A DNA stretch of 64,000 nucleotides from Panorpa germanica (Eukaryota; Arthropoda; Insecta; Mecoptera; Panorpidae), in the NCBI GenBank assembly GCA_963678705.1, contig OY783206.1, positions 13,899,807-13,963,806 of the forward strand. The letters run 5' to 3'. The position numbers and the translations under genes were made by a program. The notes below the pieces were generated by a model, which saw nothing but the letters and a program-made list of their open reading frames with translations, was not told where the DNA came from and made no database searches. Within the stretch, counting starts at the first letter, position 1; each line of letters opens with the position of its first letter. Positions 19,636 to 43,417 of this stretch are shown in pieces.

Positions 19636-19646
19636 TTTATATAATA

Positions 19647-21712
19647 CTAGCTGACCCGGCGAACTTCGTACCGCCTGTAAATGAATATCGTGTTACCTTT
19701 TAGCAGTTTAGCTGAACTAATTTAGGCTTTGATGAACGTAATACAATGATACAAAATAATATTAATATAGATAGAAACATAAAAGTATTTTATTATGATG
19801 AATGATGATGAAAACATACAGAATGAGAATAAAAATTAAAAAAATAATAATAATTAAGTAATTCAAACTCATGTCAGAAAAAAATGATTGAAAACTATGT
19901 TGTGCAGATTGGAATACACTCGGATTAATTCATTAATGGGATTTTCATTCAAGCACCTTGTGGTAAACGACATTCTTTGTTTTTTGGTCAGGCGCAAGAA
20001 CAAATAAAGCGGATGGTTTGCCGACACGTGAGCATGCCACGTACAATTGACCATGAGAAAAACATGCATTTTCTAGATTGAGGCCACAAATAGTCAAGGA
20101 TTGGCCCTGTGATTTGTTGATCGTCATGGCGAAGGCAAGACGAATCGGGAATTGAATTCGTTTAAACTCAAATGGCATATCCGTTGGGATCATCGGAGTC
20201 CTTGGAATAAAAACTTCCTCATCTTTAAATTTTCCTTTAAGTATCGACGCGTGAATCACATTGCTCATCAGTTTTTTTATCACCAAACGCGTTCCATTGC
20301 ACAGTTTTGATTGGTTTAAATTTCTAAGCATGATGACTACCGAGCCAACCTTAAGTTTTAACTTGTGCGGTGGTAAACCAGGCACATCCAAGGAGTTTAA
20401 AAATTCACTTGGATAATTAGTGGCTTCTTCTTCGTTTGTTACACAGTCGATAGATTTGAATGAATACAGAGTACCTACGATTTGATTTTGAATTATAAAA
20501 TTGAGGTCATCTACATCTTTATTTTTAGCGGCCAAAATTGCTCGCTCACTTAACCATTTAGTATTTTTGTGGTGAGCAATGATATCCGGGAATACTTTGT
20601 TGATAAGATCGTCTTTTGATGATACAAAATTGCAAATATTTGGAGGAAATGAAATCAAACCGCTCGATTTGTCAACAGGAACACGGCTATTACCGATAGT
20701 CAGCAATTGCTTCGAGAAATCATCAGCAGATAGATCGTTCAACAATGCAACTCTTATATTTACAGACAGTTGAAGTTTCTTTACATATCGCCACAGATTT
20801 GATGCTTTGAGGCAAGCGTTTATTTCGTCGGCAGCAGTAGATCTTGGAATGACTGGTAGTGTTTGTCGGAAATCGCCAGATAATAAAATCATTGCACCAC
20901 CAAAACATCTCGAGTCATTGCGCAGATCTTTTAATGTTCGGTCTAGTGCTTCCAATGCGCGTTTGTGCGCCATTGTGCATTCGTCCCATATGATGATTTT
21001 TGATGCTACTAAAACTTTGGCCATTGCGGAGTGTTTCGAAATGTTACATGTCGGTTGTTCAGTAGTTTGAAGGTTTAATGGCAATTTTAACGCTGAGTGA
21101 GCCGTACGGCATCCGTCTAACAATGTGGCCGCTATTCCAGAAGAAGCAATTGCTACCTCAATTTCGGATCTCGCACGTACAGTGGCCAAAATCAATGACA
21201 TGAGGAATGTCTTCCCAGTTCCACCGGAGGCATCCAAAAAAAATAAGCCGCGATTTCCATCATCAATTGCATTAATCAGTGTATCATAGACTTCCCTCTG
21301 CTTAGGATTCAACAGAGGTACATTCGTTTGGACTGATTGGATTAGTTCATGTGGATCATATTCACGTTCACGTTCCAATTCTCTATTAAATGCGTCATTC
21401 ATTCCGCGATCTGGCGCTGGCATTCCTAACCTAACTAACAAACTGCCGCAAACTGCCGCAAACAGCCGCAAGCAGTTCATAATTTTAAATTTTTGTAATA
21501 TCCATTCAACGCCTGATTAGTAGGCAACAATACAAACAGGATTTAATGTAACACATATCTTCGGTCAAGAGCAAAGTTTTCATTGTTTTTAAGATGTATT
21601 ATGCTATTCAAGGCGGAGACAAATCCAACGAATCAATAACCATGAATATTGGTTCAGCAGATCTCGAGTTATAAGTGTTCTAACAAACCCGTCTTTCTTT
21701 TATATATATAGA
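19647..21712 (-). mobile_element. Helitron copy 1 (helicase-only derivative)
   Basis: Read on the minus strand, the element begins TC (TCTATATATATAAAAGAAAG, 21712 downward) after a host A. It ends with GGCG...CGCC, then GGGTCAG, then CTAG (19650-19647) before a host T. This gives an A|T insertion, a TC start, a 3' hairpin and a CTRR end, all canonical for Helitrons. Length is 2066 bp. It encodes only the PIF1-type helicase portion of the normal Rep-helicase protein. I found no difference from copy 2 at 41355-43417, so at least one of the two moved very recently. Confidence 0.92.
19945..21480 (-). CDS. Helitron PIF1-family DNA helicase (Rep domain missing), copy 1
   Basis: The 511-residue open frame encodes a superfamily 1B PIF1-like helicase, which unwinds DNA with ATP during rolling-circle Helitron transposition in the nucleus. 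Visible motifs are Walker A GGTGKT (residues 86-91), Walker B IIIWDEC (162-168), motif III SGDFRQTLPV (201-210), and the C-terminal signatures AMTINKSQGQ (451-460) and LYVACSRVG (479-487). Autonomous Helitron proteins are usually well over 1000 residues, with an N-terminal HUH Rep nuclease that is absent here. The first 19 residues are encoded by a threefold 10-bp repeat (aactgccgca-type, 21441-21470). Homology begins near LGMPAPDRGMNDAFN, so Met20 may be the better start. The frame has no stops, although the element cannot transpose alone. Confidence 0.9.
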   Translation of the reverse strand: MNCLRLFAAVCGSLLVRLGMPAPDRGMNDAFNRELEREREYDPHELIQSVQTNVPLLNPKQREVYDTLINAIDDGNRGLFFLDASGGTGKTFLMSLILATVRARSEIEVAIASSGIAATLLDGCRTAHSALKLPLNLQTTEQPTCNISKHSAMAKVLVASKIIIWDECTMAHKRALEALDRTLKDLRNDSRCFGGAMILLSGDFRQTLPVIPRSTAADEINACLKASNLWRYVKKLQLSVNIRVALLNDLSADDFSKQLLTIGNSRVPVDKSSGLISFPPNICNFVSSKDDLINKVFPDIIAHHKNTKWLSERAILAAKNKDVDDLNFIIQNQIVGTLYSFKSIDCVTNEEEATNYPSEFLNSLDVPGLPPHKLKLKVGSVVIMLRNLNQSKLCNGTRLVIKKLMSNVIHASILKGKFKDEEVFIPRTPMIPTDMPFEFKRIQFPIRLAFAMTINKSQGQSLTICGLNLENACFSHGQLYVACSRVGKPSALFVLAPDQKTKNVVYHKVLE

Positions 21713-21943
21713 TTTACCGATAAATTTAACTACCAAGATCTCCAATATGAAGTTTAAATAGTTGTAATATTATTGAAGATATAAACAATTAAAATAGTTC
21801 TTTAAAGAACTAAGATATTTACAGAATCAAAATTTTACAAAGAATGACACATTATTTTATATATATTAGTTAAATATTTTAAAATTAATACAAATGTAAT
21901 TTCTCTACTATTACAAAGTTTAAGTCAGAATTACTCTTAGAGC

Positions 21944-22090
21944 ATATATATATGAAGTGTGAATAGCATATGTCTCCTATAGATTAAAACTCTGTCCAAA
22001 ATATGTGCGAGAGAGAAAGGTTCCTATTTGTCCTCTATACGTATGTCTTTCTCTCTCGCACACATTTTGGACACACTTTCAGAGCCAGCA
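21944..22090. repeat. Palindromic MITE family H copy 1
   Basis: The block tgtccaaaatatgtgcgaga with gagaaagg (21993-22020) is repeated in inverse as ctttctctctcgcacacatt with ttggaca (22047-22073), so the transcript would fold into a 28-bp stem. A related copy lies at 40985-41110. The open frame across it (22005-22388) is not a gene. Confidence 0.55.
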
Positions 22091-23187
22091 TTCTCTTTCC
22101 ATATATATAAGCTCTAAGGAATTAATACATTTTTTCCACCTAGTATATGTTTCTAAATTTGGTTTTTATGACAAAGCAATTATATTTAAGTCTCCTAAAA
22201 AAATTGGGAGCTTTTATTTCATTACGGTTTTTGTATTTTTTATTTATAGAAAAAGTTTATTTGCTAGTCAGTTTTACTTCCATCTAAAAAAAGCTTCGTA
22301 TTTGCCAATTCTATTTAAACAGTACTCCAATAAATTCTTTATAAAAAGCTCTGTCTGTGGATTTAAACCAGAATGTCAAATGCGGTAAAGCTTACAAAGC
22401 TTCGATATATTGCTGTATAAATAACGGTTGAAAAAATACAAACATCTTTTTTTTATGATCAACTCTTTATTTGTATTCAGTACATCACAGTTGTTGGGCC
22501 ACGTCCCACGGTATCTGCTCTTTGACCTTGACGATTCAATAAAGGTGATTTGTTATTTCCGGGAAAATTAATGAAAGCTTTTATTTTAAAATCCTTTTTT
22601 CAAGTGATGATAAGCTTTGAACTTTACAGCTTTCTATGTTTAAATGAATATGTTTAATTAAATTTGAAGAAGTATTTTTGTATTAAGTATTAAAAACTTG
22701 TTAGGAATTTCTGATGGAAGGAAAAGTGTTGAGATATTTTGAAACATACTGTGGTATTATTGTTGAAGTTGCTTTTAAAAGCTAAGCACCTTAAGCTCGA
22801 ACAGTTGGTTTGTTAGAGTGAGGAAGAAAGAGAAGTAGAGAAAGGGAGAGAGACAACGTCATTTGAATTCAGGAATTGGAATATGTACAAGCTTAGTAAA
22901 TAAGTGATATTTATATATATATTTATTTATTTATATATATCCGGGTCATGATTCTGCTAAAGGTGACAATTCTGTGTACACAGTATGCTTACAATTTGTA
23001 TCGTCATGTCGATCAGCTAATTTAAACGTTCATTTATCGTATTCACATGTACACGTCTTTTCAATCCGTTGCGAAAACTCTAGTGAAAAAGAAATGATGC
23101 AATTCTTATCTAATTAGTCTCTTAGGTAATTATAAATGTTAATGTGATGGATAATTTTATTGGAGGGAGGGTTTATGTTCATATATA
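22091..23187. other. Gene-free DNA
   Basis: AT-rich with TA microsatellite tracts (about 22910-22940). No gene or repeat family is recognised. Confidence 0.3.
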
Positions 23188-23650
23188 AAGCCCAATTCCT
23201 ACTCACTTTTTAAGTTTTAATTTAAGCTCAAATGTAACTTTTAACTTGTGAAATCATGCGTCATGCGTTGGTAATATACATTATTTTGTAATAATTACTA
23301 TCTTGATTTCATATAAATTATTCTAGTTAATATAATTAATTTTATATCTTTATATTTCACAAACTGAACTTACATTTTAGGTTAAAACCTTAAATTAATA
23401 TTAAAACTCAGTAATATATAGATAAAGGTGTCTATCAGGACCTCAAATGTCCAATTATTTTTTAATAACTCGCTATATTTTACGGGATATTAACAATTAA
23501 AATACATATTTTTTCGCTTTAATTATTAAAGGGATCCAACGTTATAGAGAATTCCAAAACATGTAACGTCATGTCCGGTATGTTACCATCTCTTTTGTAC
23601 AACAGAACGCAATAGAGATAACATACTTAAGTGAGTGGGAATGGGGCTTA
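23188..23650. mobile_element. MITE-like element, TIRs like family D, holding a family B relic
   Basis: The left end taaagcccaattcctactca and the right end gagtgggaatggggctta are imperfect inverted repeats that share ACTCACT with family D. The right half (about 23420-23630) is homologous in reverse to family B: ctcaaatgtccaattatttt, ggatccaacg, and a catctcttttgtacaac hairpin block. This is either a composite or a nested insertion. Non-coding. Confidence 0.45.
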
Positions 23651-24618
23651 ATGTGGTGTGTTGTAAGAATGTGCAGCAATAGTTTTTAGGTTTTCTTATA
23701 ATTGTACTTATTTGTACCACGAGTTCTTAACAGTAGGGGTGTCTGTCTTTATTCAATAATGATTACAGTGATTTATAAATATTTTCTTGTGAGTTTACAA
23801 TACGACGTTACACTATAGCACTTAGTATAGGCACTTAGAATATAGAGCAGTTTTTTTAATTCTCAACGTTTTCATAAATATTTAAACTTTCGATAGTTAT
23901 TAGCACTTAAAACAATATTACAAATATAAATATTTGTAATACACAATTTATAGTATATAAATACGACTATGGGTATTTAAAATGCAGAGATTTCTTTGAT
24001 AAAGCCCATAAGGTTTTTAAGTCTTTCCCTGCTTTCAAATATTTGCCTATAGTTTTCAAGCATATTACAGTTTTGTCTGTGCAATTAGTACTTAAAGCAT
24101 TGAGGAACAAAATGCTTCACTGTTAGTGAGCTGTTATATTGTTCACATATCAGTTAAATTCTATTTATGGTCTCCTAATTTAATTCTAAAAAATGGGTTT
24201 TTCAACTCAAGTTCAAAAATGAGAGCTGAGAAATAGAAGTACCACCCATGATTTATAATAAACTTCAGTTAATTGAGGTTTGAAAAAACGGCGCTTAGTC
24301 ATTACTGTCCGGTATTATGTTACACACCGCTAGTATACTAATATAAAATGAATCATATGTATGCTTGTAAAAGTTTCATTAATCGTCTAAAATATTACAC
24401 GACCTTAAATGTAATTTTTAAGAAAGATCATAGATATCCAGTCCAGTTCATTAGTGAGACATATCCGAATGTTGAGTTTTGACATAACGACGAAACCAAT
24501 GTTTCATTAATGAATTGAATAATGTTACGTGTGAAGTATCTCACATGTTTCGAGTATTTTATAAAAATATTTAAATTTTATGTGTATTAATACAGATCAA
24601 TATCAATTGTTAGTATAC

Positions 24619-24750
24619 CCATTTGCAACAAACTAGTGAAGCCAGTGTTTGTACCAAATGATGTCCAGAGATGTTTCTCCAGCCTCCATCGATATCAAGT
24701 GTTCGCCGTACTCCATCCATGTGCAACAAAATTTTGTAGAGTGTGGTAGT
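24619..24750 (-). other. Candidate host exon (minus strand), unknown protein
   Basis: On the minus strand a TTTGCAG acceptor (exon starts at 24750) is preceded by a tactaaat branch-like motif. It leads into 44 open codons, LYKILLHMDGVRRTLDIDGG then WRNISGHHLVQTL, up to TGG|GTATAC (exon end 24619). The length would be 132 nt, phase 0 at both ends. The stretch is GC-richer than its surroundings and lacks repeat features. A second frame is also open over most of it (MEYGEHLISMEAGETSLDII), so the reading frame is not certain. The protein is not recognised. An ancient transposon relic remains possible. Confidence 0.35.
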
Positions 24751-24867
24751 CTGCAAATGCATATTTAGTATTTACATAATGTATGTTTATTATTAATTAA
24801 CCACGAGTTCATTTAAATAAACAATTATAGCTACTACTGTATTATATTTTGATGTCAAATTATCCGC

Positions 24868-24904
24868 GCATTTACACACACACACACAGAGAGAGAGAGA
24901 GCGA
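24868..24904 (+). repeat. (AC)n(AG)n microsatellite
   Basis: A compound dinucleotide run: about seven AC units followed directly by about seven AG units. Confidence 0.9.
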
Positions 24905-24999
24905 CAGGGTAAGAGGAGACAGTATACTCCGATTAAAAATTTATTAATTGCATTTAACGTAATTGCAAAAATTATGTATATACACAATACGTCTGGCAC

Positions 25000-26452
25000 A
25001 GATTTAAACGCAATAGAATTCCTTAAATATGTGCATTTAATATTTAGATTATTTATTAGCTTTATTTAAGCTAAGTTAGTCTAATAACCTAAATTTTGTT
25101 TTATGGTAATGTAAAGAAATACGAGTATCTACCTCGTAAACATTTTGTAGTCATTTCGCCATCATATTGTATGATTATGATGCATAGCATATAATTTTTT
25201 TGTCATGAAACAGTTCATTTACACTTCGGTTTTTCACAGTCGTTCATATGAAATGTCTATTTTATCGGCTACAAATGGCGAAACCATCCACCAGTCGGAA
25301 AAAAAATGAAGATAAAATTGTTGCAAACTATAATTGAAGTGCAATAGTGATAGAAACGTCACAAAAAGGGACGCTTCACCAAATTGTTAACTGGGTAGTT
25401 CTTTTTATATTGTATTTTCTTATAACTGATTTGCTTTCCGATTTTACAATCTCCTTTACTTTTTATTTATTCATATTTAAACTCAAGTTAACTTAATTTT
25501 CAATTCAAATCTTTCTTCTTCTCGTTTGTAGTTCTCTCTTTGTTTTCTTCTTACTCCCGCCATCCATTCTCTTCCTCTTCCTTTTCCAATACCTCCTATA
25601 GGCACAATCCATTTTCCACTTTCTACCGACACCTACTCTTAATATGCTACAATTTCTTCTCTTCCTTTCCTCACATCCAGCCCCGTATTTAAAGGGAAGG
25701 GGGCAAACAGCGGAACTAGGGCAAGCAATTTATGGAATCGCAAAATTCATATATTTGAAAAAGTACTGAAAAGTTGTTAAAAGAAATTTTTTTTTAGAGG
25801 AACTTACCTTTTTTTTTTAGTTCTCTCGGAAATTGTCAGGAACAAATAAAAAATAAATAAAAAATCACAATAAGTAGGGGGTAGAAGAGGCACCGAACCA
25901 TAGAGTGACCCTGGGTGCTAATGTCACGTTCTTGCCGCGGTTCAAAAAAATCTTGCTACATGTTTTCTCGTCCTCTTTTTCCCTATACCAGTCTCCTCTT
26001 TCTTTGTTCTGTAGTTTAAACCTTCCTTAGGTTCCCTAGTCTTTGTTTTGTTTTGAAATAGTCGTTTCTACTTATAATCAGCTTTTGGTTTTTCTATCCT
26101 TACTAATAAATAAATTCTATTTAATTTTCATTTTACAACAACAACCTCGCACTATGAAATACGCAAAGTCGTAAACAGCTAAAATAAATCGTAGTAAATA
26201 AAGATATAGAGTAATTAACATCTAGAATAAAACAATTAAAGGTGAGATAAATATGCATTTTTCCTGAATATGAATGTTAATGCATAAAAATCATGACCTA
26301 CCATTCACTACCTATAAATCATCCTCGATAGTTGCGGGCGATAGAAATCTTATTCGATGATCTCGTAGTAATGAAACACTCCTATTAATTTAAAGAAAAA
26401 CTCGAGAAATAGTTCATTTGTCTTGATTAAAATAATGCTTAGAAATTATCTT
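25000..26452. other. Gene-free DNA with a C/T-rich LINE-like patch
   Basis: The tract at about 25507-25690 is CT-rich. Its minus strand reads a glutamate/lysine/arginine-rich stretch similar in composition to the LINE relics at 30.8, 45.1 and 52.2 kb, but it has no diagnostic motif. The remainder shows nothing recognisable. Confidence 0.3.
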
Positions 26453-27050
26453 CACATATAAAAATTCTGCGTGCGTATGTTTGTGCTCGCAAAATTCGAA
26501 AAGTATTCGGCTTGGGAATTTAAATATATGTTAATAAATGTTTTTATTTTATCAAATATCTAAATATTGACGGAGATATAACAATTAAAAATTTGAATTG
26601 TAGTTTTAGCGCTACAGATGTCGGCCATATTTATGACTTAATCATGTAGCATTATTAAGGAATAGGTCATTTATTTGTTATATTTAAAAGAGTTCTCTCT
26701 TAAGTTTGCTATCTCTTTTACGCTATGTTGTATAAAAGAGATGGCAACCTACTGGAATGGCATTACATGTTTTGGAATTTTCCATTCCCTTTTATAATTA
26801 AAGTGAAAAAATTACTATTTTAATTGTAAATATCTCCTAAAATATAGGGAGTTATTTAAAAACAATTGTACATTTGAGGTACAATTAGTACCTGGTAGGC
26901 AACTTTATCAATATATTGCACAGTTTTATAGAAATTAAAACATGGTACAAAAGCCCATTCATTTCTTTCCAGTTAATCGTCGTCTGTGTGTATGTGTGTC
27001 ATTTATTTACTTTCCAATTTACTTCATATCAGAGTGAACCACAACGAAAC
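26453..27050 (+). mobile_element. Helitron remnant family C copy 2, split by a family B element
   Basis: The left part (cacatataaaaattctgcgt, gcgtatgtttgtgctcgcaa) and the right part (ttcatttctttcc, gttaatcgtcgtctgtgtg) match 7256-7480. In between, about 26520-26962, lies family B sequence ending acaaaagcccat. About 70 bp present in copy 1 at the junction is missing here. The right end (accacaacgaaacgtggccc) resembles a Helitron 3' hairpin, but CTAG is lost. Confidence 0.5.
26520..26962 (+). mobile_element. Family B element copy 4, nested
   Basis: Shares the internal blocks of the intact copy at 29160-29793: atctaaatattgacggagat, gtagttttagcgct, an atctctttta...taaaagagat hairpin, aattgtacatttgaggt, and the right end gcccat. 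The left terminus has decayed (cttggg). It is inserted in a Helitron remnant. Confidence 0.55.
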
Positions 27051-27928
27051 GTGGCCCAACAAAATAATATATAAAAATACCTAAATGTTGAAGAAATAAT
27101 CTAAGCTAAATCACATGAAAACTTGGTCTCTTCACATCTTGGTCTTTCCTACATTCTTAATACAAGCCTAACAATAAAGTGGTACAAAGTGGTAATAAAA
27201 TCATAATTTCCTTTATTACATTTACGGCGTCAAAACTTGTGACGTAACCAGTGAACATTGTTGTACGTGTAAAAAATGATTTACATTTTATTTGATTGCG
27301 CCCTCGGGTTATTACCAGTTCTCCCGTGTCCCGCGTCCCGCGTCCCTTGTCCCTTGTCCCAGTCGTCGTTTCCCACAGGTCAGGTTTACAGAATCCCGGT
27401 CTGGGAGTACAAAGAGTCAGAGAATAGAGAGAGTGGGGTTTTGCAGATATCAAATATTGTCATGTTGGTCTTGCGTGCTACTATGATTGCTAGTATTCCA
27501 GGGGTATTTATTGAGGGTAAATAAGGTCGAAGGGGTTAATTTCTAAAATGGTTTGCCTCTAGACTACAGATTGTAATGTAAACGTAGTCCTAGCTGCATG
27601 CACTCACTCACTTTCCACGTTTGAAGGGAGAGTGGGAGTAGAACGATGAGAAGGAGAGGTAGAGCACTTTATCGTCAGGAGATTGCTGTATGATTTCCAT
27701 GCTGTAACGGTGGATTCATTTAAACAATAGTTTACCCATTTGTCTAGTACTTTTTTAATTAAACCAAATTGATTAATGATTTAGTTGGTTTATATATTGA
27801 TGTTTGTCGGATGACTAATTAATAACGAGCATGGCTACATTGTAAATATATATGAATGAATACAATTAAAGGATTGTTTCAATTTGTGTTGAAAATTAAC
27901 ATAGTATGGAGTGGACTTGTTAACTATG

Positions 27929-28372
27929 CCGGTTTCACACCAAACAATTTTGTTTTCAAAAAACAAAACAAAAACATGTTTTGTTTTATTTTAAAACAGT
28001 TCTGTTTTTCGAAAACAGACTGGTTTGGTTTCTAGTGTTTTTCTGTGTGTCTCATAACAATTTAGTATCCCACAAATTATTGTGTTGGCGATACATTTCT
28101 ATTAAATTGCCGGTCTTATCTTTTGTCATCTGCATTCTGCATTTATTTATATCTGATCTTAGAACTTGCTAGCCAAATGACAAGCGTAAATGTTTACAAA
28201 AAACAAAAGTGCGTGTTCAAACCAAGCAGACTAGAAAACAATAACAAACGTGTTTTCCTTTGATCTTACCGATTCCATATACGCACGTGTTGTTTACTAA
28301 AACCGTTTTTAAAGACTGTTTAGTTTTCACAAAACATTGGTGTTTTTCATTGTTTTATCTGGTGTAAAACCG
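27929..28372. mobile_element. MITE with ccggtttcacaccaaa termini
   Basis: The left end ccggtttcacaccaaacaat and the complement of the right end (attgttttatctggtgtaaa then accg) are imperfect inverted repeats. The interior is rich in aaaacaaaac/gttttgtttt blocks on both sides, giving extended internal complementarity. No exact target duplication was found. Non-coding. Confidence 0.5.
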
Positions 28373-29159
28373 ATATAAATAATAATGATTTTTTGAAGAC
28401 TTTAATATATGTCACGTATTTTCAAAAGATTGTTAAAAACAGAGAAATTTAAATTTTAAATTGCTGTCTTTGTCATCTTTAGTATATTAAAAAATAAAAT
28501 AGTTTAATATACACCTTACACATATTAACCTACAGCATACATGAAACTACAGTTTTACCTTAACACATAAATTAATTTTTCATACCGGTGTAAATTTCCA
28601 AGTAGGTTCTAATTAAATTTTTCATCGAACGACCGCTTAAAAATGCATAACACTTGACTTAATTATACTTTGGTGCCTTGGTTACCGCCACGCTGCGCCG
28701 TTTCCTTTAACCGCGTTATCCAATACTGATCTCATTAAAATTAACTCTCAAAGGCGACGCAACCAGCTGCAGCTGATTGTAATCGATACCCTACATCCCT
28801 ACAACCCTGCAACCTTACTACCGTGCACATTAGCTATTCCACTCCTAGTTAATTAAAATTTTCATAGCAACTAAAGGCACTTATAGGTGCTTAATTCAGT
28901 TTGGTTCAGAATACACACAGAAATCAAACCGATTTTATACTTGTATTTATATTTTCTACCAGGTTATATTATTAGAATAAATAGACCTTTCGTTATTTTT
29001 TTTTTTTTCTTTATTCATTTACCTAATTACAACTGGCCTAATGACCAACCACCAATTTATCCATAAGCAATACATATACATAACATACGATATTAAGGTT
29101 CGTCCATTGATATTTACTTAATTTATATTTTTGATTTTATTCTTGTTTTATAATTGTAA

Positions 29160-29793
29160 TGGGCTTGTGTTCTCATTTTTTAGTGGTCGATTTTTGAATT
29201 GTTGATTGAAATTGATGTTAGTAAATGTGTATTGACGTGGATATTTCATTAAATATCTAAATATTGACAGAGATATAGCAATTAAAAGTTTGAATTGTAG
29301 TTTTAGCGCTAGAAATGGTCGGCCATATTTTTATGACGTGAAATGCATTTTAACGTCAGTTATTTTTTGAGTAGGCCAGTGCTGTGGTAATGTTCTGTAG
29401 CTGTTGGTAGTCAAATAATCAAATCAAATCAAATCAAAGAATAATAAGTTTTTATTTTATTTAACCCTGCTAAGACAGACATAATATTGGATTTTTATTG
29501 TTCCTTGAAATAGCTGTAAATAATATTTGATATATAAATACATATAGCAAAGATTTATGAGCTCTAAGGTTGGTAACCTTACACAAGGATTGTGATGTCA
29601 CATGCACTTGGAATGTGTACAACGTTGAATCCCTTTAATAATTAAAGAGACAAAATGACTTTTTTAATTGTTAATATCTCTTAACATATAAGAAGTTATT
29701 AAAAAAATGATTGGACATTTGAAGTTTTAGTAACCCACCCAAATCAATATATAGTACACTTTTATAGAAATTAAGACATAGGACACAAGCCCA
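29160..29793 (+). mobile_element. Family B element copy 1, TTGTAA target duplication
   Basis: The element runs from tgggcttgtgttctcat to the inverted end acataggacacaagccca. TTGTAA flanks both sides (29154-29159 and 29794-29799). The 634-bp interior is non-coding but contains a conserved hairpin and shared blocks found at 23.4, 26.5, 35.6 and 47.1 kb. It inserted into a minus-strand LINE relic, and part of it now forms the fused 3' end of an open frame there. The class is unknown; a 6-bp duplication is unusual for common MITE groups. Confidence 0.65.
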
Positions 29794-29799
29794 TTGTAA

Positions 29800-30177
29800 T
29801 TGTAGTTCGAATGGTTCTTTTCTCTTAAGTCTTCTAGTTAACACGTGGTTGTCCAACAGTTGAAGTACCTCGTCATTCGGATGATAGTGCAGTCTGTCAT
29901 GATGCTTGGGAGCATATCTTTTTATTTCTTCAGTGACGGTCTCTATCTGGAGATCTCGGTGGCGGTCGCTATTTCGAATATACCAAGGAGCGTTTGCTAT
30001 AGCTCTCAGTACTTCATTTTTAGAATGTTGTATAATTTCTAAGTTAGTTTTCTTTGAGCATCCCCATAGTTGGATACCAAATAACCAAAGTAGTTTCATG
30101 ATTTGCCTATATAGGAGCAGTTTATTGTGTGTGGTATTGTGTGTGGAGCTTTCGTTATAAAAACTTAATTTATTCAC
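29800..30177 (-). pseudogene. Jockey-type LINE reverse transcriptase C-terminal relic
   Basis: The minus-strand frame reads KLLLYRQIMKLLWLFGIQLW, GCSKKTNLEIIQ, then LRAIANAPWYIRNSDRHRDL, EEIKRYAPKHHDRL and HPNDEVLQLLDN. This series (YGIQLWG, APWY.RN, HRDL, HPN) is the conserved C-terminal portion of Jockey-clade non-LTR retrotransposon polyproteins. The polymerase domain is missing. The last 43 codons of the uninterrupted frame (29671-29799) come from the inserted family B element rather than the LINE. A short STHNTTHN duplication near the start is unusual. Confidence 0.8.
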
Positions 30178-32893: not shown

Positions 32894-33068
32894 AAAGGTA
32901 GCCTAACATCATAGCTTTATAGTAAACCCGTTGCACTCTCTAACAAAGCCGAGTAATTTAAGGACGAATCCTTATACCTTAGTATACCCGACAGTGTTGC
33001 TATTGACAACTGACCACTTTGGCCACGACGCCTGGTGGTCAAAAGAAGTACTAGTTCTGGTGTGCACT

Positions 33069-33705
33069 TGATACACAATTTTGATTGGTTTAGTATAAAT
33101 TTTTTAACCGTACGGAAAAAATGCAAGTTAGATAAATTGTAGAGAATTTAAATGCGCATCTAGCCGTACTATTTTAAAAATTTAAAAAAAATATTTTACC
33201 ATAGTTTTTGTGTTTTTCTGTTTTTGACCTCACGTTTTTTGACCATAACTAGGCGACAAAATCAAAAAGTCCACGTTGTTTGTTCTACAAGTTGTAAAAC
33301 TTATTGTTTTAAACATATTTATACATTAGAAAAAAAAACACTTTTCATATAATTTTATGAAGAAAACGTGAAAAAACGTTTCGTAAATGTTGAAAATTAA
33401 TTTTTGTTGGTCCACGTTTTTTCACGTTTTTTCATAAATTTATTTGAAAAGTGTTTTTTTTTCTAATGTATAAATATGTTTAAAACAATAAGTTTTACAA
33501 CGTGGACTTTTTGATTTTGTCGCCTAGTTATGGTCAAAAAACGTGAGGTCAAAAACAGAAAAACACAAAAACTATGGTAAAATATTTTTTTTAAATTTTT
33601 AAAATAGTACGGCTAGATGCGCATTTAAATTCTCTACAATTTATCTAACTTGCATTTTTTCCGTACGGTTAAAAAATTTATACTAAACCATATACTTGTG
33701 TATCA
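33069..33705. repeat. Long near-perfect inverted repeat (about 300-bp arms)
   Basis: The left arm starts tgatacacaa, then ggtttagtataaattttttaac from 33087. It runs through ccgtacgg, atgcgcatctagccgtac, acgttttttgaccataacta and gtccacgttg to about 33380. The right arm is its reverse complement and ends taaacc at 33689 and ttgtgtatca at 33705. The arms look almost identical apart from one extra 16-bp block in the left arm (about 33278-33294). The spacer is only about 25-35 bp. A transcript would form a roughly 300-bp hairpin. This is a foldback/MITE-type structure; no protein is encoded and no target duplication was found. Confidence 0.85.
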
Positions 33706-34560
33706 CAACGTCACTGTTTGGATTATCATTATTTTTACCACATTTTATCAAATGTCCAGCTTGCAGAATTTTTTCTGCATTTCTAACAATTTTCTGAGCT
33801 GGATTTGATCCAACCCAGTGAAAAAGTTGGTTTAAAGAAAACATAAATAATTAAAATTCATGACACTAATTCAATGTAAACTTATGGTTAATTCTTTGGT
33901 TGCACACCAGAAGTAGCCATGTTTTTTAAGCCCCGCCTACTGGTCCGTTGTCAATATTTATCAACGGTGTGATTGTATTTAGTCTGTATATGCAAATGAA
34001 AGCTTATATGCGTTGAGTACGGTCTCCGATAGAAATAAAATACTAACCTATATGTAGTGTAGGTGTAAGTAACATTTGCACTGAATATCCGACAATACTT
34101 TTGCCTATGATTGTCACTTGTGAACTACCCTAATTGATTTAGTTAAGTTTTTAAAAATATACCTCAAAATTGTCTTCAAAGTTCTAATTATAATAAATAA
34201 ATGTCAGATAGCAATAATCGCTTCACACTTAAAATGTTTCAAACCCCTGAACGACTCTATTATACATATACCTTTTTATTTACAAGAGCCCCGCTGAAAG
34301 CAGCTCGGCTGACGTTAACATAGAAAACCTTTGCAGTAGCCAGAGCCCCTTGAATGCAACACGATACCATGGCAGGAGTCAGTTATTACAGTGAGGGGAA
34401 GAGGTTGGGGGTTATTAGGAGATGCAAGCAAAGAGAGAGGGGTGACGGGAGTCCGATGTTGACGTTACGCCCGTATGATCACAATTAATTAGGGTTGGTT
34501 GGTAACGTTCAAATCTAAAACTTTAGTACATGGATACTGTTTTGAAAGGATACTCCTCGA
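33706..34560. other. Gene-free DNA
   Basis: No gene recognised. It includes a purine-rich island (about 34391-34450). Confidence 0.3.
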
Positions 34561-34600
34561 GTGCTCGTTGGTGCTCGCTGGTACTCGTTGGTACTCGTTC
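34561..34600 (+). repeat. Tandem repeat, four 10-bp units
   Basis: Four consecutive units gtgctcgttg, gtgctcgctg, gtactcgttg and gtactcgttc, differing at one to three positions. Confidence 0.9.
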
Positions 34601-35508
34601 ATTCCAGCTCGTGTTTTGCTTTGTTTACTTTGAGAAGCTTAAAGTGGTTTCAATAAAATTATATTGGATACACTTTTGTCAATAATGAAGCCAAGAGATG
34701 AGCTTCTTCTTTGTAAATTAATGAATATGACTTTGGGTTTTGAATTCTCGTATTTACATACTTAGTATGCATTTAGTGCATTCCGTTTAGTGAAGTAGAA
34801 ATTGTGGCTTACCTAGCTTAGAATGATAAAACACATATTTGTTTTATCAAGTGGAATACAAATAAAATAAAATAGAAGAATACAATTTGCAAACCATTAT
34901 AATTATATCACTGATAGAACTGTTATACAATTATTATTCCACGCAGTCCTTGTAAAAATAGTCTATGTCATAATTAAATGCTTAGCGTTAGGCAACACTA
35001 TCGTAGATGTCACTAATATCTCATTTAGTTTGCAGCAGTATGAAAAATGGCTGTCATTCACTTGTCATTGTTCCTTGTTAAATTTTATTCAAAATAATAT
35101 AATTTAGTGGTGATCATACCATATTTATCAATAAATGTATCTATGAAGGTATTATCTTTGTTTTAAAGTAATTACCCATAGCGTTTGCTTCAAAAAACAC
35201 TATTTTGTTGTGCAACGTATAGCATCTGAGTTATAACCTAGCAAATTAATTTCATTTGTCAAATCAAATAAAATATACAGTTGTTTTAAGTATTGTAATA
35301 CTTGCTATAGTCATTGACAATACATATTGTGATAACTTGTGCTTCTTTTTAAACATGTAAAACATTTATTCATTCAGTGTACAGTTCAGTTTTGGGTTAA
35401 GAATACAATGTTTTTATACACCTGTTCATTTATAAAAACAAAAACGACCTTGAATTTATTCAACTAAAACCATACACAGTGTCAGTGGTGAAATGTTCCT
35501 GTTTGTAG

Positions 35509-35535
35509 CAGATCCTCTGGGGCTTGGAGGAACCC
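35509..35535 (+). other. Candidate 27/24-nt microexon with NAGNAG acceptor
   Basis: The acceptor ttcctgtttgtagcag offers two adjacent AGs (35507-35508 and 35510-35511). It is followed by atcctctggggcttggagga with accc, and a consensus donor gtaagt (35536-35541). Both acceptor choices give lengths divisible by three (27 or 24 nt). Possible peptides are QILWGLEEP, RSSGAWRNP or DPLGLGGT, depending on phase. The segment is GC-rich in AT-rich DNA. The gene is unknown. A chance pairing of splice-like motifs cannot be excluded. Confidence 0.4.
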
Positions 35536-35608
35536 GTAAGTGTCATAATGCATATTCTTATTTTTAAAGTAATGTTGCTTTATCATTAGCAGAAATCAAT
35601 GTCTTAAT

Positions 35609-36235
35609 GGGCTTGTGTACTCATTTTTTAGTGGTCGATTTTTCAATTGTCTATTGAAATTGATGTGTCTATTTTATTAAATATCTAATTGTTGACGGAG
35701 ATATAGCAATTAAAAAATTGAATTATAGTTTGAGCGCTAGAGATGTCGGTCATTTGTATGACGTTTGTATGGCATTGTACACGTCAGTTATTTGTTGAGT
35801 GGGTCAGTGCTGTGGTAATGTTTTGTAGCTGTTGCTAGTCGAAATAATCAAGTCAAGTCAAAGAATAATAAGTTTTATTTTATTTAATCCTGTTACGGCA
35901 GACATAATATTGAAGATTGATTTTTCCTTGAAATAGCTGTAAATAATATTTGATATTTTGATATATAAATACATATAGCAGAGATTTATGAGCTGTAAGG
36001 TTGGTAACCTGTAAACTTGTCAGAATTCTGTCACGAATATATCTCTTTTACGCTCTGTAGTATAAAAGAGTTTTGGAATGTACTACAACGTTGTAGTAAG
36101 AGACAAAATGACTTTTGTAATTGTTAATATCTCCTAACATATAAGGAGTTATTAAAAAAATAATTGAACATTTGAGGTTCTAGTAACGCACTCTATCAAT
36201 ATATAGTACACTTTTATAGAAATTAAGACATAGGA
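35609..36235 (+). mobile_element. Family B element copy 2
   Basis: It begins tgggcttgtgtactcatttt and follows the intact copy at 29160-29793 throughout, including the tctcttttacgctctgtagt hairpin block and aattgaacatttgaggttct. It stops at acataggac, with the right terminal bases lost. Confidence 0.65.
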
Positions 36236-37143
36236 CTAAATAATACAACAGTTTAAAATTGTATTAAAGGTAAATTTGGTTTTGTTTAAAATATGCTGTA
36301 TACTTATACTTTCACCTTATTTTTTTATTTTTTGGATATATTTCTAATATGCAATTCAGTGTTAAAATGAAGTAGCAGTTATTTTCATAACATGGAGACA
36401 CAATTTCTGGTAGCAGGCAGTGATGAATAATAAATAATCTAATCTTGCGTTAGTTGTGTCACACTTCACAGGGCACAGGGCTCGTCTACTGTGTTGCCAT
36501 CTCGTGGCAAACTGTTTTACTACGTGTATAATATTCGCGTTAATTATTTTTTGTAATTTTGATGCCCCATAAAAACATCTCAACGGAGTGATAACTTAAA
36601 TTGTTCTCATCAGCATGTGTTGAGCGTTGGTGATGTAAAGCGGGTGGCTAGGGGGGAAAGGGTTTCGTAGGATATGATTTTATAATAAAGAAAATAAAGT
36701 CTTAGTCACAATATTAGATATACCGTTTATTTTTTAGGTGACGCAGAGCTCAGCATATTATATTTTCTTTTTATAAACAGCATATATTATTGGGTATATT
36801 CTTGAAATTTCTGTTATTAGATATAATTCTGACTAGCAGTTTCTAATGGTCTTATGTAGAATCAAAAGAATATTATTAAAAAAATTATATATAATTCTTA
36901 TTACATGTATAAATAAGCTTTATTGTGTATTGTGTATAGTATTAGTGTAACCTCTTATACCAACGATAGAAATTGATTGATCACTCAATAAGTTCGTAGG
37001 ATAACATAGGCTTGTATATTGACAAATACATATGATAGCAACCTTCAAGATATGTGCCAAAAATTTATGACATTCCGACGATTAGTTTATGAGTTACAGT
37101 GGGCTTAGTGATGCTACTTTTGCAATTTTGAAAACAACGGCAA

Positions 37144-37263
37144 AATCTGAATTTCGTGTGTTCATAAAGCATTGCTTTTCAATGGGAAAAATTATCGTTT
37201 CAGTAAAGCAATGGCTTGATAAGTGTTTATTGGACTCGGTATCTTTTCCAATTAATAAGTAAT
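37144..37263 (+). pseudogene. Mariner transposase N-terminal relic
   Basis: Reads KSEFRVFIKHCFSMGKIIVS then VKQWLDKCLLDS before a stop. It corresponds to the first helix-turn-helix of mellifera-type mariner transposases, which binds the terminal repeats. No catalytic domain follows. Confidence 0.7.
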
Positions 37264-37383
37264 GCTTTATTACCGCACTGAATTCAGATCCTCAAATTGC
37301 TTTAAAAATTCGACTGTAACTCGTAAACTAATGGTCGGAATGTCATGAAATTTTGGCACACATCTTTTGAAAGTTGATACTAA

Positions 37384-37770
37384 AGGGTATTCCAGTAGGG
37401 GCGGCTCGATGCTGACCTTGATGTGGTTCCAGAACTTAGGTGACCAGAATTGTTAACCAAGATCGTGCGACTTGACCTCACTAGACGTTTTCTTGTGGGT
37501 TTTTTTTAACTTGCAGGTCTATGCCAATAAGTCACAATCAACCAATGACCTCAAAGTCAACATAATCAAGACTATTGTTTAAAATCAGCCAGATCTGTGC
37601 AGCAGAGTTATTGAAAATTAGACTTTTAGGATTCGTGCCACCGTGCAAAGTCGCGGCGGACATTGTCATACATAATGGTATACGTGGGCCTGTCAAATAA
37701 AGAAAGAATTTCGGAAATATCTTATACACATCTTGTTTTATTTATTGACCCGCCCCTAGTGAAAAACCCT
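37384..37770 (+). mobile_element. Nested non-autonomous transposon with C-terminal transposase relic
   Basis: The left end agggtattccagtaggggcg and the complement of the right end (cgcccctagtgaaaaaccct) are 20-bp imperfect inverted repeats. Inside, 37520-37677 reads KSQSTNDLKVNIIKTIV, stop, NQPDLCSRVIEN, stop, then RIRATVQSRGGH. This resembles the C-terminal tail of Tc1/mariner-superfamily transposases. It is a 387-bp internally deleted derivative, inserted in the mariner-derived element around it. Confidence 0.6.
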
Positions 37771-38693
37771 ATATCAAAAAATAATTTGTGGCGCCATCTA
37801 TATGGCACTCTGCGAACTTATTGAGTGATGTTCTACGTATGTAAGAGGTCGTCTGTCGTCGGTAGTAGTTAAATTTTTGATTTTCTTTAATAAATTTTTA
37901 AGTTTACACAGCAAATTTATTCCGGTTTTTGGAATGTATTGTACAATTCATAAATATTAAATAAATACTTTACAAATGCAATATAAACAGATAGCCTGTC
38001 ACCCACTATGTTTTTAAAATATTCATTCGTACTAACAATAAATAAATAGTTATATAAAAATAAGCATAAATAAATATAAATTACATACATATAATGAAAA
38101 TAAATTCTGCATTCGAATGGTGTTGTTACCTCAACCACAACGCTACCTCCCATTACCACCCACTTCATACCACAGATCTTGAATTCTTCGTATTTTATCA
38201 AAATATTATTTGGAACCTATAAATTTTGATTATGCGTTATATATTTCTACCGGAGCTATAATCCATTTAAAGAAGATATTTTTTATGAATAGCGAAGCTC
38301 TAAAAGTGAAACGAAGATATAGAAGCGTCAGTATATTTTAAGATATTATCTATAGCTTCTCATACATCACTTTTACACCAGCAAAATATTTTCTTTAAGA
38401 AATATACCTTTTCTTTTCAAAGAAAAGCAGTTTAATTGGGTTACAGTATTGTGGAAATTAGTTGCGATAATAAAAAAATACATTAACAAAAGACAGCACG
38501 AAAATGTAGTGAAATTGTATTTTTAATAATAAATGTCGTCCCGGCTTCCCAAGTGAACCACAAATCCCCAACCTACTTCAGAGTTTTTTCGAATGACACC
38601 AAGTTGCGTACGTTAATTAGGTTTAAGATTACTAAAGATGAACACAGCAGGAAGGAGAGAGAAACCAATTCATAAATCATTATATGTGTACAG

Positions 38694-38815
38694 AAATTAT
38701 ATTTCTTTAGTTGGTAACACTGACCACAGGTATTACCACTGCATTCTGGTCAGATGAGTTATCGGTATATATTGGTTATAGCTACTTTCATTGTAGTGTG
38801 TGCCAACGGCCAGCA
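38694..38815 (-). repeat. Family A terminal part, minus orientation
   Basis: The reverse complement gives ggccgttggcacacactaca, atgaaagtagctata, and tcatctgaccag. It then gives the terminal module ctgtggtcagtgttaccaac with taaagaaatataattt, as in the copies at 52.6 and 62.5 kb. Only the terminal part is present. Confidence 0.5.
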
Positions 38816-38928
38816 AAGTTGATATTTGGAGTCCAAAGAGATCATCTCAAATAGGACTCGAACAAATTTTGAGAGTCTTGAGAAAACCTATTAATTGGAA
38901 GGAATAAAAAAATGTAAATGTACCGAGC

Positions 38929-40001
38929 ATTAGATTATTATTATTCAGGTAGAGGAACTCCTGCAAATATAACCATTGGCAAGGAGTTAAATATGAGTAA
39001 CATATTACCTGAGCTAATAACTATAGACTTGCAACAAAAATTGGATCAACAATTCCCGAATTATACAAAATTATACACTGACGGCTCAAAACAAGCAGAT
39101 GGAGTGGGTGCAGCAGTAGTAGATATTAACAATAGCAGAATTTACAACCTTCATAATCAGTCATCCATATATGTTATATAGCTGAGTAATGTGCCATAGA
39201 TCTAGCTATGGATCTAATCATTACTGATGACAGAGACACCACTTTAATATTATCCGACTCGTTATCAGTCATACAGTCGTTAAATAGTAAGGGAATCAAT
39301 ACAAAATTAGACAACAAAATGTATTATGTCAAAGAAAAAATAAATAGGGAAATAGATCAAGGCCGAAATATTAACCTAATTTGGATACCGTCACATAAGG
39401 GAATTAAGGGAAATGAAAAAGCTGACCAAATGGCCGAGCTAGCTGCCTCCTGTGATAACTATATTTCATATTTTATAAAATCAGATATGAAAGCTGAATT
39501 AGAAAAAAATGAAATGAAAAATTTGCAAGACAAGTGGGATAATTCTGATAAAGGTAGAGAATTTTATAAAATACAACTAATACTGAAACGTAAGCCATGG
39601 TTTGCCAAATTAACATGACCAAGAAGATTAATAACAATGACCTCAAGACTAAGAATGAATCATACTGGAGCTCCGAAACATCCAGCAAGAAACAAAATCA
39701 TTCCAAACTCTAAATGCAAATGTGATGAAGAGGAGGCAGATCCTGACCACATTCTGTGGCAATGTAAAAATACAGCAATGGCAAGAAATGGACTCCAAAG
39801 GGCGGTACTACAGACTTCGCAGACGCTTCCTGTTAACACCGCCTTTTTGATTAAGAAACCGAAATTTATAACTGCAGTAGCCATAAATAGATCATTCTTG
39901 TTGTCTGGATATAACGTATAAGAAGAAGCAGAACAATATTAGGGGCGATAAAAGGCTACGTGCCTAGAAAGCCCGAGAAATTATATTAAAAAAAAAAAAA
40001 G
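38929..40001 (+). mobile_element. 5'-truncated LINE insertion with poly-A and 10-bp target duplication
   Basis: Flanked by the direct duplication tgtaccgagc (38919-38928 and 40002-40011). It ends with a 3' UTR (ggggcgataaaaggctacgt, gcctagaaagcccgag) and an A-run of about 13. This is the signature of target-primed reverse transcription. Only the RNase H and zinc-cluster end of ORF2 is included, with several inactivating changes. The tail matches the short copy at 8593-8656. Confidence 0.92.
38930..39921 (+). pseudogene. LINE ORF2 C-terminus: RNase H domain and CCHC cluster
   Basis: RNase H cleaves the RNA strand of RNA-DNA hybrids during LINE replication. Its catalytic residues are all recognisable: YTDGSKQADGVGAAVVD (first D), then, after a frameshift, AE followed by a TAA stop and CAIDLA (E), LILSDSLSVIQSL (D), and WIPSHKGIKGNEKADQMAEL (H and last D). 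After a TGA at about 39616 the same frame continues RRLITMTSRLRMNH to the zinc cluster CKCDEEEADPDHILWQC (C-x-C-x8-H-x4-C), ending at 39921. Defects are one frameshift near 39180 and two nonsense codons. An RNase H followed by a zinc cluster fits the I clade. No reverse transcriptase is present. Confidence 0.88.
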
Positions 40002-40129
40002 TGTACCGAGCGTTTTTTTCCGTAAAAATTTCTTTTATGAAGCAATAAAGTCTTTTTCAAAAAAAAAGTCAATGAATTATCAAACTATCGTCGTATTATT
40101 ACAAAAACTAAAAGAATCAGAATACATAC

Positions 40130-40360
40130 CATGTACATAACACATTTTTGGAATTGTATATTTTTAATGAAACTTATGGGCTGCTTTTGAAATCAAAGTC
40201 ATAGTAATTGACATACACATTATAATAATTACATTGTTTAACTTAAATCATACTATCTTACCTGAAATCAAAGAAACAACATGTAAAGTTTATTATTTAA
40301 ATTGTCAATTCCTTTTAATATAATTTTATAATAACTTAACATTATGCACAGTGAGTTCTG
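40130..40360 (+). repeat. Family A repeat copy
   Basis: Shares with 48598-48880, 52350-52560 and 62195-62430 the blocks ggaattgtatatttttaat, tgaaatcaaag, acacattataataattacat, catactatcttacctgaaat and taacattatgcacagtgagt. Non-coding; the class is unknown. Confidence 0.6.
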
Positions 40361-40447
40361 TCTAGTCATTTCTTTAGGTTTGGAAACAGGAAATAATCGC
40401 AAGAACCTAATTTTGGAGTATATGCTCGATAGGGTAGCAGCTCTTAG

Positions 40448-40823
40448 CACAATTTATGGATTTTTGCCATGGTGACTACATACTCATTCGCAATTGCAAA
40501 ACCCATCGCGCGGATAGCTTCTTCATATCCAAATAATCATGTAAAATGTATGTACTCGCTTAGTTGAGATGCCTACAACCTCAGCTACTTCTCGCACTTG
40601 CGTTCTCCGATTGCCGAATATTATTTATGCCGTGACGACCTCTTTTGGGCAACCTTACCGTTCGGCGTCGCTTGTGCTGGTACGACTATGGCGGAACATA
40701 GCAACCCACTTCCTTACCATTGAAATTGATCGTACAGAGTCCCCATATTATTAGCCTTTCCTTAGTTTCGGTGATGGTTTTTTGCAAATACAGAGCACAC
40801 GAAATTCACTTTTTTCCATTTTC
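40448..40823 (-). pseudogene. Mariner (mellifera-type) transposase N-terminal relic
   Basis: From the ATG at about 40823 on the minus strand it reads MEKSEFRV-like residues (MEKSEFRVLC after one codon), two stops, then YGDSVRSISMVRKWVAMFRH and SRTSTSDAER. After frameshifts come VREVAEVVGIST and HDYLDMKKLSARWVLQL. These are the paired helix-turn-helix regions of mariner transposases, in order. The catalytic domain is not present in this window. Several stops and frameshifts show that it is old. Confidence 0.75.
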
Positions 40824-40984
40824 GTTAAAATTCCCAAACGTAAAAAACACAAACTAATTAACGCAAAGTGTTAATAGATGGCAATTGGCGGGAGCTGCGC
40901 GGGAAATTAAAGAAGTCCAGAGTAAAAGTGTATCTAATCCTTTTATATCTATATAAAAGGGCAAACTTTGTAGACTAAACCTGA

Positions 40985-41110
40985 GATCATATACATATGG
41001 AGTGTGAATAGCCTATGTTTCCTATAGATTAAAAGTGTGTCCAAAATGTGTGCGAGAGAGAAAGGTATATGTTTCTATTTGTTTTCTATGCGCATGTGTT
41101 GAAAGTGACA
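40985..41110. repeat. Palindromic MITE family H copy 2 (partial)
   Basis: Carries atggagtgtgaatagccta, cctatagattaaaa and tgtccaaaatgtgtgcgaga with gagaaagg. These match 21944-22020, but the inverted partner arm is lost. Confidence 0.5.
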
Positions 41111-41354
41111 GCTGTCTAGATATAATAAATATTAATCTTCTATTAAGATATAATAAATATTAATTATATTTCTAAAAATTATATTTCTTTAGATGGTGCA
41201 AAGCTCGTCTCTCGGTAAAACAGTGATCGTTCAGTGAAATCATTGACGCCATAGATATCTCTGTAGGAATAACGGCAAACACAGTTGGTATTTGTAGTGG
41301 ATATAATTCACGTTTTTAGTTATATTTATATATAGTTTATATTTTATATATATA

Positions 41355-43417
41355 CTAGCTGACCCGGCGAACTTCGTACCGCCTGTAAATGAATATCGTG
41401 TTACCTTTTAGCAGTTTAGCTGAACTAATTTAGGCTTTGATGAACGTAATACAATGATACAAAATAATATTAATATAGATAGAAACATAAAAGTATTTTA
41501 TTATGATGAATGATGATGAAAACATACAGAATGAGAATAAAAATTAAAAAAATAATAATAATTAAGTAATTCAAACTCATGTCAGAAAAAAATGATTGAA
41601 AACTATGTTGTGCAGATTGGAATACACTCGGATTAATTCATTAATGGGATTTTCATTCAAGCACCTTGTGGTAAACGACATTCTTTGTTTTTTGGTCAGG
41701 CGCAAGAACAAATAAAGCGGATGGTTTGCCGACACGTGAGCATGCCACGTACAATTGACCATGAGAAAAACATGCATTTTCTAGATTGAGGCCACAAATA
41801 GTCAAGGATTGGCCCTGTGATTTGTTGATCGTCATGGCGAAGGCAAGACGAATCGGGAATTGAATTCGTTTAAACTCAAATGGCATATCCGTTGGGATCA
41901 TCGGAGTCCTTGGAATAAAAACTTCCTCATCTTTAAATTTTCCTTTAAGTATCGACGCGTGAATCACATTGCTCATCAGTTTTTTTATCACCAAACGCGT
42001 TCCATTGCACAGTTTTGATTGGTTTAAATTTCTAAGCATGATGACTACCGAGCCAACCTTAAGTTTTAACTTGTGCGGTGGTAAACCAGGCACATCCAAG
42101 GAGTTTAAAAATTCACTTGGATAATTAGTGGCTTCTTCTTCGTTTGTTACACAGTCGATAGATTTGAATGAATACAGAGTACCTACGATTTGATTTTGAA
42201 TTATAAAATTGAGGTCATCTACATCTTTATTTTTAGCGGCCAAAATTGCTCGCTCACTTAACCATTTAGTATTTTTGTGGTGAGCAATGATATCCGGGAA
42301 TACTTTGTTGATAAGATCGTCTTTTGATGATACAAAATTGCAAATATTTGGAGGAAATGAAATCAAACCGCTCGATTTGTCAACAGGAACACGGCTATTA
42401 CCGATAGTCAGCAATTGCTTCGAGAAATCATCAGCAGATAGATCGTTCAACAATGCAACTCTTATATTTACAGACAGTTGAAGTTTCTTTACATATCGCC
42501 ACAGATTTGATGCTTTGAGGCAAGCGTTTATTTCGTCGGCAGCAGTAGATCTTGGAATGACTGGTAGTGTTTGTCGGAAATCGCCAGATAATAAAATCAT
42601 TGCACCACCAAAACATCTCGAGTCATTGCGCAGATCTTTTAATGTTCGGTCTAGTGCTTCCAATGCGCGTTTGTGCGCCATTGTGCATTCGTCCCATATG
42701 ATGATTTTTGATGCTACTAAAACTTTGGCCATTGCGGAGTGTTTCGAAATGTTACATGTCGGTTGTTCAGTAGTTTGAAGGTTTAATGGCAATTTTAACG
42801 CTGAGTGAGCCGTACGGCATCCGTCTAACAATGTGGCCGCTATTCCAGAAGAAGCAATTGCTACCTCAATTTCGGATCTCGCACGTACAGTGGCCAAAAT
42901 CAATGACATGAGGAATGTCTTCCCAGTTCCACCGGAGGCATCCAAAAAAAATAAGCCGCGATTTCCATCATCAATTGCATTAATCAGTGTATCATAGACT
43001 TCCCTCTGCTTAGGATTCAACAGAGGTACATTCGTTTGGACTGATTGGATTAGTTCATGTGGATCATATTCACGTTCACGTTCCAATTCTCTATTAAATG
43101 CGTCATTCATTCCGCGATCTGGCGCTGGCATTCCTAACCTAACTAACAAACTGCCGCAAACTGCCGCAAACAGCCGCAAGCAGTTCATAATTTTAAATTT
43201 TTGTAATATCCATTCAACGCCTGATTAGTAGGCAACAATACAAACAGGATTTAATGTAACACATATCTTCGGTCAAGAGCAAAGTTTTCATTGTTTTTAA
43301 GATGTATTATGCTATTCAAGGCGGAGACAAATCCAACGAATCAATAACCATGAATATTGGTTCAGCAGATCTCGAGTTATAAGTGTTCTAACAAACCCGT
43401 CTTTCTTTTATATATAT
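41355..43417 (-). mobile_element. Helitron copy 2 (helicase-only derivative)
   Basis: Aligned with copy 1 at a constant offset of 21,708 bp. I found no mismatch from 3 bp outside the CTAG end to the tip of the 5' ATATATATAAAAG tract. The 3' side shows CTAG followed by T on the minus strand, as expected. The 5' tip differs: where copy 1 has host A then TC, this copy reads CTG just before the shared ATATATATA, so the canonical TC is not preserved. The flanking DNA is unrelated to that of copy 1, so this is a separate insertion rather than a segmental duplication. Confidence 0.9.
41653..43188 (-). CDS. Helitron PIF1-family DNA helicase (Rep domain missing), copy 2
   Basis: The 511-residue product is identical to that of copy 1 at 19945-21480, with the same helicase motifs (GGTGKT, WDEC, SGDFRQ, NKSQGQ, LYVACSRVG) and the same missing Rep nuclease. 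Open frames in the other phases also match between the copies, which supports identity at nucleotide level. The leader between the element's 5' end and the first ATG is about 230 bp. The protein lacks nuclease activity, so any role would be as a helper helicase or as a passenger of a fully autonomous Helitron elsewhere in the genome. Confidence 0.9.
   Translation of the reverse strand: MNCLRLFAAVCGSLLVRLGMPAPDRGMNDAFNRELEREREYDPHELIQSVQTNVPLLNPKQREVYDTLINAIDDGNRGLFFLDASGGTGKTFLMSLILATVRARSEIEVAIASSGIAATLLDGCRTAHSALKLPLNLQTTEQPTCNISKHSAMAKVLVASKIIIWDECTMAHKRALEALDRTLKDLRNDSRCFGGAMILLSGDFRQTLPVIPRSTAADEINACLKASNLWRYVKKLQLSVNIRVALLNDLSADDFSKQLLTIGNSRVPVDKSSGLISFPPNICNFVSSKDDLINKVFPDIIAHHKNTKWLSERAILAAKNKDVDDLNFIIQNQIVGTLYSFKSIDCVTNEEEATNYPSEFLNSLDVPGLPPHKLKLKVGSVVIMLRNLNQSKLCNGTRLVIKKLMSNVIHASILKGKFKDEEVFIPRTPMIPTDMPFEFKRIQFPIRLAFAMTINKSQGQSLTICGLNLENACFSHGQLYVACSRVGKPSALFVLAPDQKTKNVVYHKVLE

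Follow-up and report, generated by a model that had tools for sequence, protein, structure and literature searches.

The window analysed here is a 64,000-nucleotide stretch of the mecopteran Panorpa germanica (GCA_963678705.1, OY783206.1, positions 13,899,807 to 13,963,806 of the forward strand), and it holds two copies of a Helitron that codes for a helicase without a Rep domain. Both copies lie in contig C3 (27.8 Mb) of a 464-Mb genome assembled in 249 contigs. Each carries an open reading frame (ORF) predicted to encode a PIF1-type superfamily 1 (SF1) helicase of 511 residues (Table 1), and no Rep (HUH) domain (PF14214) was found in this ORF by Pfam scan, so that the elements lack the Rep part expected of an autonomous Rep-helicase (RepHel) Helitron. 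A previous sequence-only reading had proposed two identical helicase-only Helitrons with identical proteins in unrelated surroundings, and the comparison of the copies bears this out. Indeed, aligning 19636-21709 with 41343-43417 gives 0 mismatches and 1 gap, which falls in TA-rich flank beyond the element, and walking outward from the ORF the identity is unbroken over 19644-21709 and 41352-43417, at a constant offset of 21,708 bp. Differences number 0/1536 in the ORF and 0/301 in the 3' non-coding part, and the sole difference within the borders of copy 1 lies at the 5' tip, which reads TCTATAT in copy 1 and CTGATAT in copy 2 (TCT vs CTG).

Table 1. Features of the window discussed in the text, with window positions (the window's first letter is 1).
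Feature	Position	Strand	Remarks
Rep-less Helitron, copy 1	19647-21712	minus	2066 bp from 5' TC to 3' CTAG; host A / T on either side
3' terminus, copy 1	19647..19675	minus	weak GGCG/CGCC hairpin and CTAG
Helicase and 3' end	19647..21450	minus	97-98% identical to L069:3813-5613 and L070:3848-5652
511-aa PIF1-type helicase ORF, copy 1	19945..21480	minus	Pfam PIF1 4.4e-60, Pif1_2B 1.6e-18
Filler, ~97 bp	21451..21547	minus	in neither parent read; gives the ORF its ATG and repeated TTTGCGGCAG-like units; marks the Rep-less lineage
30 bp of parent Rep-helicase linker	21548..21577	minus	L069:3777-3806; first deletion joint, right after the 5' end
5' terminal segment common to element and RepHel parent	21578..21712	minus	~element 1-134
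Rep-less Helitron, copy 2	41355-43417	minus	same sequence as copy 1 minus the first three 5' bases (TCT)
3' terminus, copy 2	41355..41383	minus	weak GGCG/CGCC hairpin and CTAG
511-aa PIF1-type helicase ORF, copy 2	41653..43188	minus	protein identical to that of the copy 1 ORF
275-aa open frame	13850-14677	plus	by eye like a transposase fragment
Inverted self-match	33069-33705		~640 bp
Mariner-type transposase, 314 aa	60750-61694	plus	Pfam Transposase_1 5.5e-22

The pair had been located correctly from the letters alone, with borders that we now adjust as in Table 1: copy 1 has both Helitron ends (5' TC and 3' CTRR, here CTAG), and copy 2 has the CTAG without the TC. The terminal 3' 25-mer GTACGAAGTTCGCCGGGTCAGCTAG is found at just two sites of the window, against a mean of 0 in 100 shuffles. 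Of the complete 3' hairpin and CTAG ends claimed earlier, the CTAG is perfect in both copies, whereas the hairpin has a stem of only 4 bp (GGCG/CGCC) and folds no better than chance (z -0.32; 66/200 shuffles fold equally well). Insertion between A and T is seen for copy 1; copy 2 is compatible with it, yet its surroundings are TA-rich and ambiguous.

The full Rep-helicase parent that the sequence-only reading had suggested looking for is present in the same genome. Searches were made with the Rep family PF14214 (best 150 of 893 candidates scored) and with the helicase (best 84 of 1930 candidates scored), and many of the helicase matches lie inside open frames of 1119 residues. In two parents, L069 and L070, a single 1119-residue frame contains Helitron_like_N and PIF1, with two more open stretches upstream, and the parent helicase aligns with the Helraiser structure 7lcc over 441 residues in a structure alignment. 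A further short stretch of sequence, read for L069, confirmed its 5' end, and the 3' ends of the parents and the window element agree, bar one base in the terminal stretch of L070; the parent also has the same 4-bp stem. Thus the window element has the ends of a RepHel family of its own genome, as expected of a non-autonomous Helitron. Because its 5' end, 30 bp of linker, and its helicase with the 3' end map on the parent around ~97 bp of new sequence, the window copies are internal-deletion derivatives, with filler, of a RepHel Helitron from this genome. The parent helicase DNA is identical at 12 places (group P1), with 3' flanks that differ except in one tail-to-tail pair, and since 12 places share this identical region the parent appears to have been recently active.

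The joint created by the deletion and filler was found at 82 places genome-wide (28 forward, 54 reverse; ≤3 mismatches; control 0) and is present in all 20 Rep-less places read, while the terminal 3' 30-mer has 483 places (≤1 mismatch). A mid-helicase pattern with 310 places was not used for any count. The helicase records read number 43, some of them the same place twice, and together with the window they give 10 distinct sequences. Grouped by place, these are A (2, the window pair), B (5, in 3 types), C (10, identical) and D (3, older) among the Rep-less copies, and P1 (12) and P2 (1) among the parents. The C copies form a burst: all 10 sit in different flanks, two of them head-to-tail, all end in TC...CTAG with T after the CTAG, and a host A precedes the 5' TC in 9/10, the tenth directly adjoining the 3' end of the copy next to it. 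Four of the 5 B copies have one common 3' flank, and are therefore probably part of a larger duplication. The proposed count of stops across copies could be made in part: a full-length helicase match was obtained for 27 of the 82 joint-bearing copies, 23 of them open and 4 with stops, and the other 55 are without a match among the best 84 of 1930 candidates, so that 23/82 is a lower bound and the 55 are not proven broken.

Together, these data are very probably explained by a non-autonomous Helitron that arose from a RepHel element by internal deletion with filler, has been mobilised in trans, carries its helicase frame as an unselected leftover, and in the window was paired by a local hop or gene conversion. 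A RepHel Helitron would have founded the Rep-less lineage by an internal deletion whose joint received ~97 bp of filler. Since the derivative retains both parental ends, the parent Rep-helicase could nick, replicate and insert it in trans. The helicase frame would then be leftover coding sequence, open in young copies through the few changes accumulated, and one window copy would derive from the other by recent short-range transposition, or both would have been homogenised by gene conversion. The shared ends and the recent activity of the parent make mobilisation in trans the likely route, and this part of the earlier proposal, together with the recent spread of Rep-less copies, stands well with a parent in the genome and near-identical copies at separate sites.

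The earlier suggestion that the helicase is kept by selection fared differently. It would describe an element that is semi-autonomous, in that it makes the helicase itself and needs Rep alone from elsewhere, as has been proposed for the RPA gene of rice Mothra, and it draws support from the at least 23/82 joint-bearing copies with an open full-length frame, some of them coding for proteins 94-95% identical to that of the window copy. We examined pairwise ratios of non-synonymous to synonymous substitution (dN/dS, Nei-Gojobori), branch counts against a spectrum-matched neutral expectation, and coding against non-coding divergence. Synonymous (S) to non-synonymous (N) counts among the young Rep-less groups are 0:10 for A-B (B1 or B2), 1:12 for A-C and 1:8 for B1-C. 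Summed over the branches of the Rep-less tree they amount to S10:N47, which shows no excess of synonymous changes over the neutral expectation (25.6% synonymous with the observed spectrum, 22.1% with a flat one; two-sided p 0.22), whereas the two parents differ by S16:N15 in the whole frame of 1119 codons (Fisher p 0.0013), and within their helicase part by 6:6 (Fisher p 0.025; 6:5 on a slightly shorter stretch). Coding and non-coding divergence are similar (A-C 13/1536 and 4/524; A-B 10/1536 and 5/461; B-C 9/1536 and 5/465). Furthermore, in 2 of the 3 older copies, length changes of 10 or 20 bp between the joint ATG and the helicase break the frame from that ATG, and the 10-copy burst carries an altered Walker A motif. 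Young copies can have open frames even in the absence of selection, as they have accumulated few changes; after ~12 random changes, the probability that such a frame is still open is ~0.57. Selection to keep the helicase is thus not supported by the synonymous counts, the similar divergence and the Walker A change, and a semi-autonomous element is very improbable.

The Walker A change itself could be read in another way. All 10 copies of the C burst carry G87E, an allele with 10 genomic places in all, every one of them a C copy; the window allele, with P85S in the same loop, occurs at exactly 2 places, both in the window (these counts come from single-allele patterns; a multi-allele Walker A pattern gave 90 places). 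G87 aligns with the glycine preceding [ST]G[KQ] of Walker A in 3/3 alignments shown (Helraiser 7lcc and two PIF1 helicases), and an excerpt of PMC4778049 reports that transposition and ATPase activity of Helraiser require the Walker A lysine. The helicase of the C group is thus likely inactive, and C nevertheless has more members than any other full-length Rep-less group read. In Drosophila, P elements with internal deletions (KP) act as repressors. In analogy, the stand-alone, ATPase-dead helicase of the deletion derivatives could interfere with the RepHel parent as a dominant-negative repressor, and the youngest copies would then be under selection for amino-acid change. P85S and G87E fall in one loop on separate branches, and the A, B and C branches alone give S1:N22 (p 0.016). 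However, ~0.4 such loop hits are expected per ~23 changes by hand estimate, which makes two hits weak and after-the-fact evidence, and the older copies alone show an ordinary neutral ratio (S9:N25). We consider a repressor role a slim prospect, and prefer an unselected leftover frame.

The flanks of the two window copies are unrelated at both borders, and the independent insertions proposed from the letters alone therefore hold. A segmental or assembly duplication instead of two insertions could account for the window Walker A allele being confined to two places 21.7 kb apart, yet the similarity ends at the element borders, and both copies lie within one 27.8-Mb contig. Moreover, copy 2 is embedded in a dispersed repeat (window 41105-43668; 2945 candidate places), and among the best 40 of these candidates its joined flanks match on both sides, without a Helitron, at 9 places (74-77% identity); in many partial matches ~45-50 bp around the joint are unaligned, and the exact target is not fixed. 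For copy 1, the joined flanks gave no place across the joint among the best 40 of 457 candidates. Assembly duplication was judged unlikely on the basis of the borders and flanks, and duplication of either kind has very little probability. As for the two insertions, a daughter copy landing at random in 464 Mb would come to lie within 21.7 kb of its source with a chance of ~1 in 10,000 (2 x 21.7 kb divided by 464 Mb, worked out by hand). Since the window allele is confined to two sites separated by 21.7 kb, we favour a short-range hop, or gene conversion between the neighbouring copies, over two landings at random, and the window copies are of recent age.

Several points weigh against a derivative that is unselected and mobilised in trans. 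The S1:N22 of A, B and C, a subset picked after looking, is poorly explained by plain neutrality with this spectrum; the three older copies came from those reported without stops; and the branching order of A, B and C is unsupported (41% bootstrap). Mobilisation in trans was not observed but deduced from Rep-less copies that are nearly identical and sit at different sites. The parents are represented by just two distinct sequences, and for the 97-bp filler no convincing match was found in the window or in fetched loci outside the element itself, no dedicated genome-wide search having been made.

Helitrons that move in trans without autonomy are already well known, and the window case fits among them. 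The following comparisons draw on excerpts of the published accounts. When HelibatN1-N3 were tested with Helraiser, at least HelibatN1 and some others were cross-mobilised, and HelibatN2 apparently was not (PMC4778049); like the window elements they have TC and CTRR ends and code for no full transposase, whereas the window elements still carry a long open helicase remnant and their mobilisation is deduced rather than assayed. Mothra of rice is likewise a lineage without RepHel that has kept one open frame, with a proposed dependence on a sister family (PMC4683698); it retains RPA, in contrast to the window elements, which retain part of RepHel and show no sign of constraint. Helicases without a rolling-circle initiator are mentioned for Pleurotus ostreatus (PMC4289320) and are similarly Helitron-type helicases with Rep absent, whereas the window elements can be assigned ends, a parent and 82 joint-bearing places. 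The silkworm BmHel elements, likened here by description only, are insect Helitrons with TC/CTRR ends and recent single bursts, for which cross-mobilisation has been suggested (PMC3789558); the excerpt of that paper describes no helicase-only family. Internal sequence loss has been described for maize Helitrons. Our literature search on helicase-only or deletion-derived Helitrons, on the end sequence and on paired Helitrons recognised no exact precedent, although one may still exist; among the papers listed, PMC6927752 employs the terms head-to-head and tail-to-tail.

The case is an ordinary non-autonomous Helitron, well resolved, in which one genome offers a clean parent-derivative pair: an apparently recently active RepHel element and a Rep-less derivative that has spread more than once, in one case with a changed Walker A loop. 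The spread of the derivative argues against a need for the helicase in cis, and an open frame in a young transposon copy should not be taken as a sign of selection. Furthermore, the window pair points to a Helitron that has transposed over a short range or undergone gene conversion.

Some arrangements of the copies are recorded as separate observations. Joint-bearing neighbours <5 kb apart (contigs C1, C2, C4, C5, C14 and C16; n=11) comprise 5 tail-to-tail, 3 head-to-head and 3 direct pairs, with 338-543 bp between the joints of the head-to-head pairs, and two parent copies (L064/L065) lie tail-to-tail with matched ends 8 bp apart. Contig C2 (29 Mb of the 464 Mb) holds 26/82 joint-bearing copies, and many listed Rep matches are on C2 and C5; this concentration perhaps reflects a repeat-rich or sex chromosome. 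Elsewhere in the window, the 275-residue open frame has no Pfam match, the inverted self-match is a near-palindrome, and the frame of the mariner-type transposase is open.
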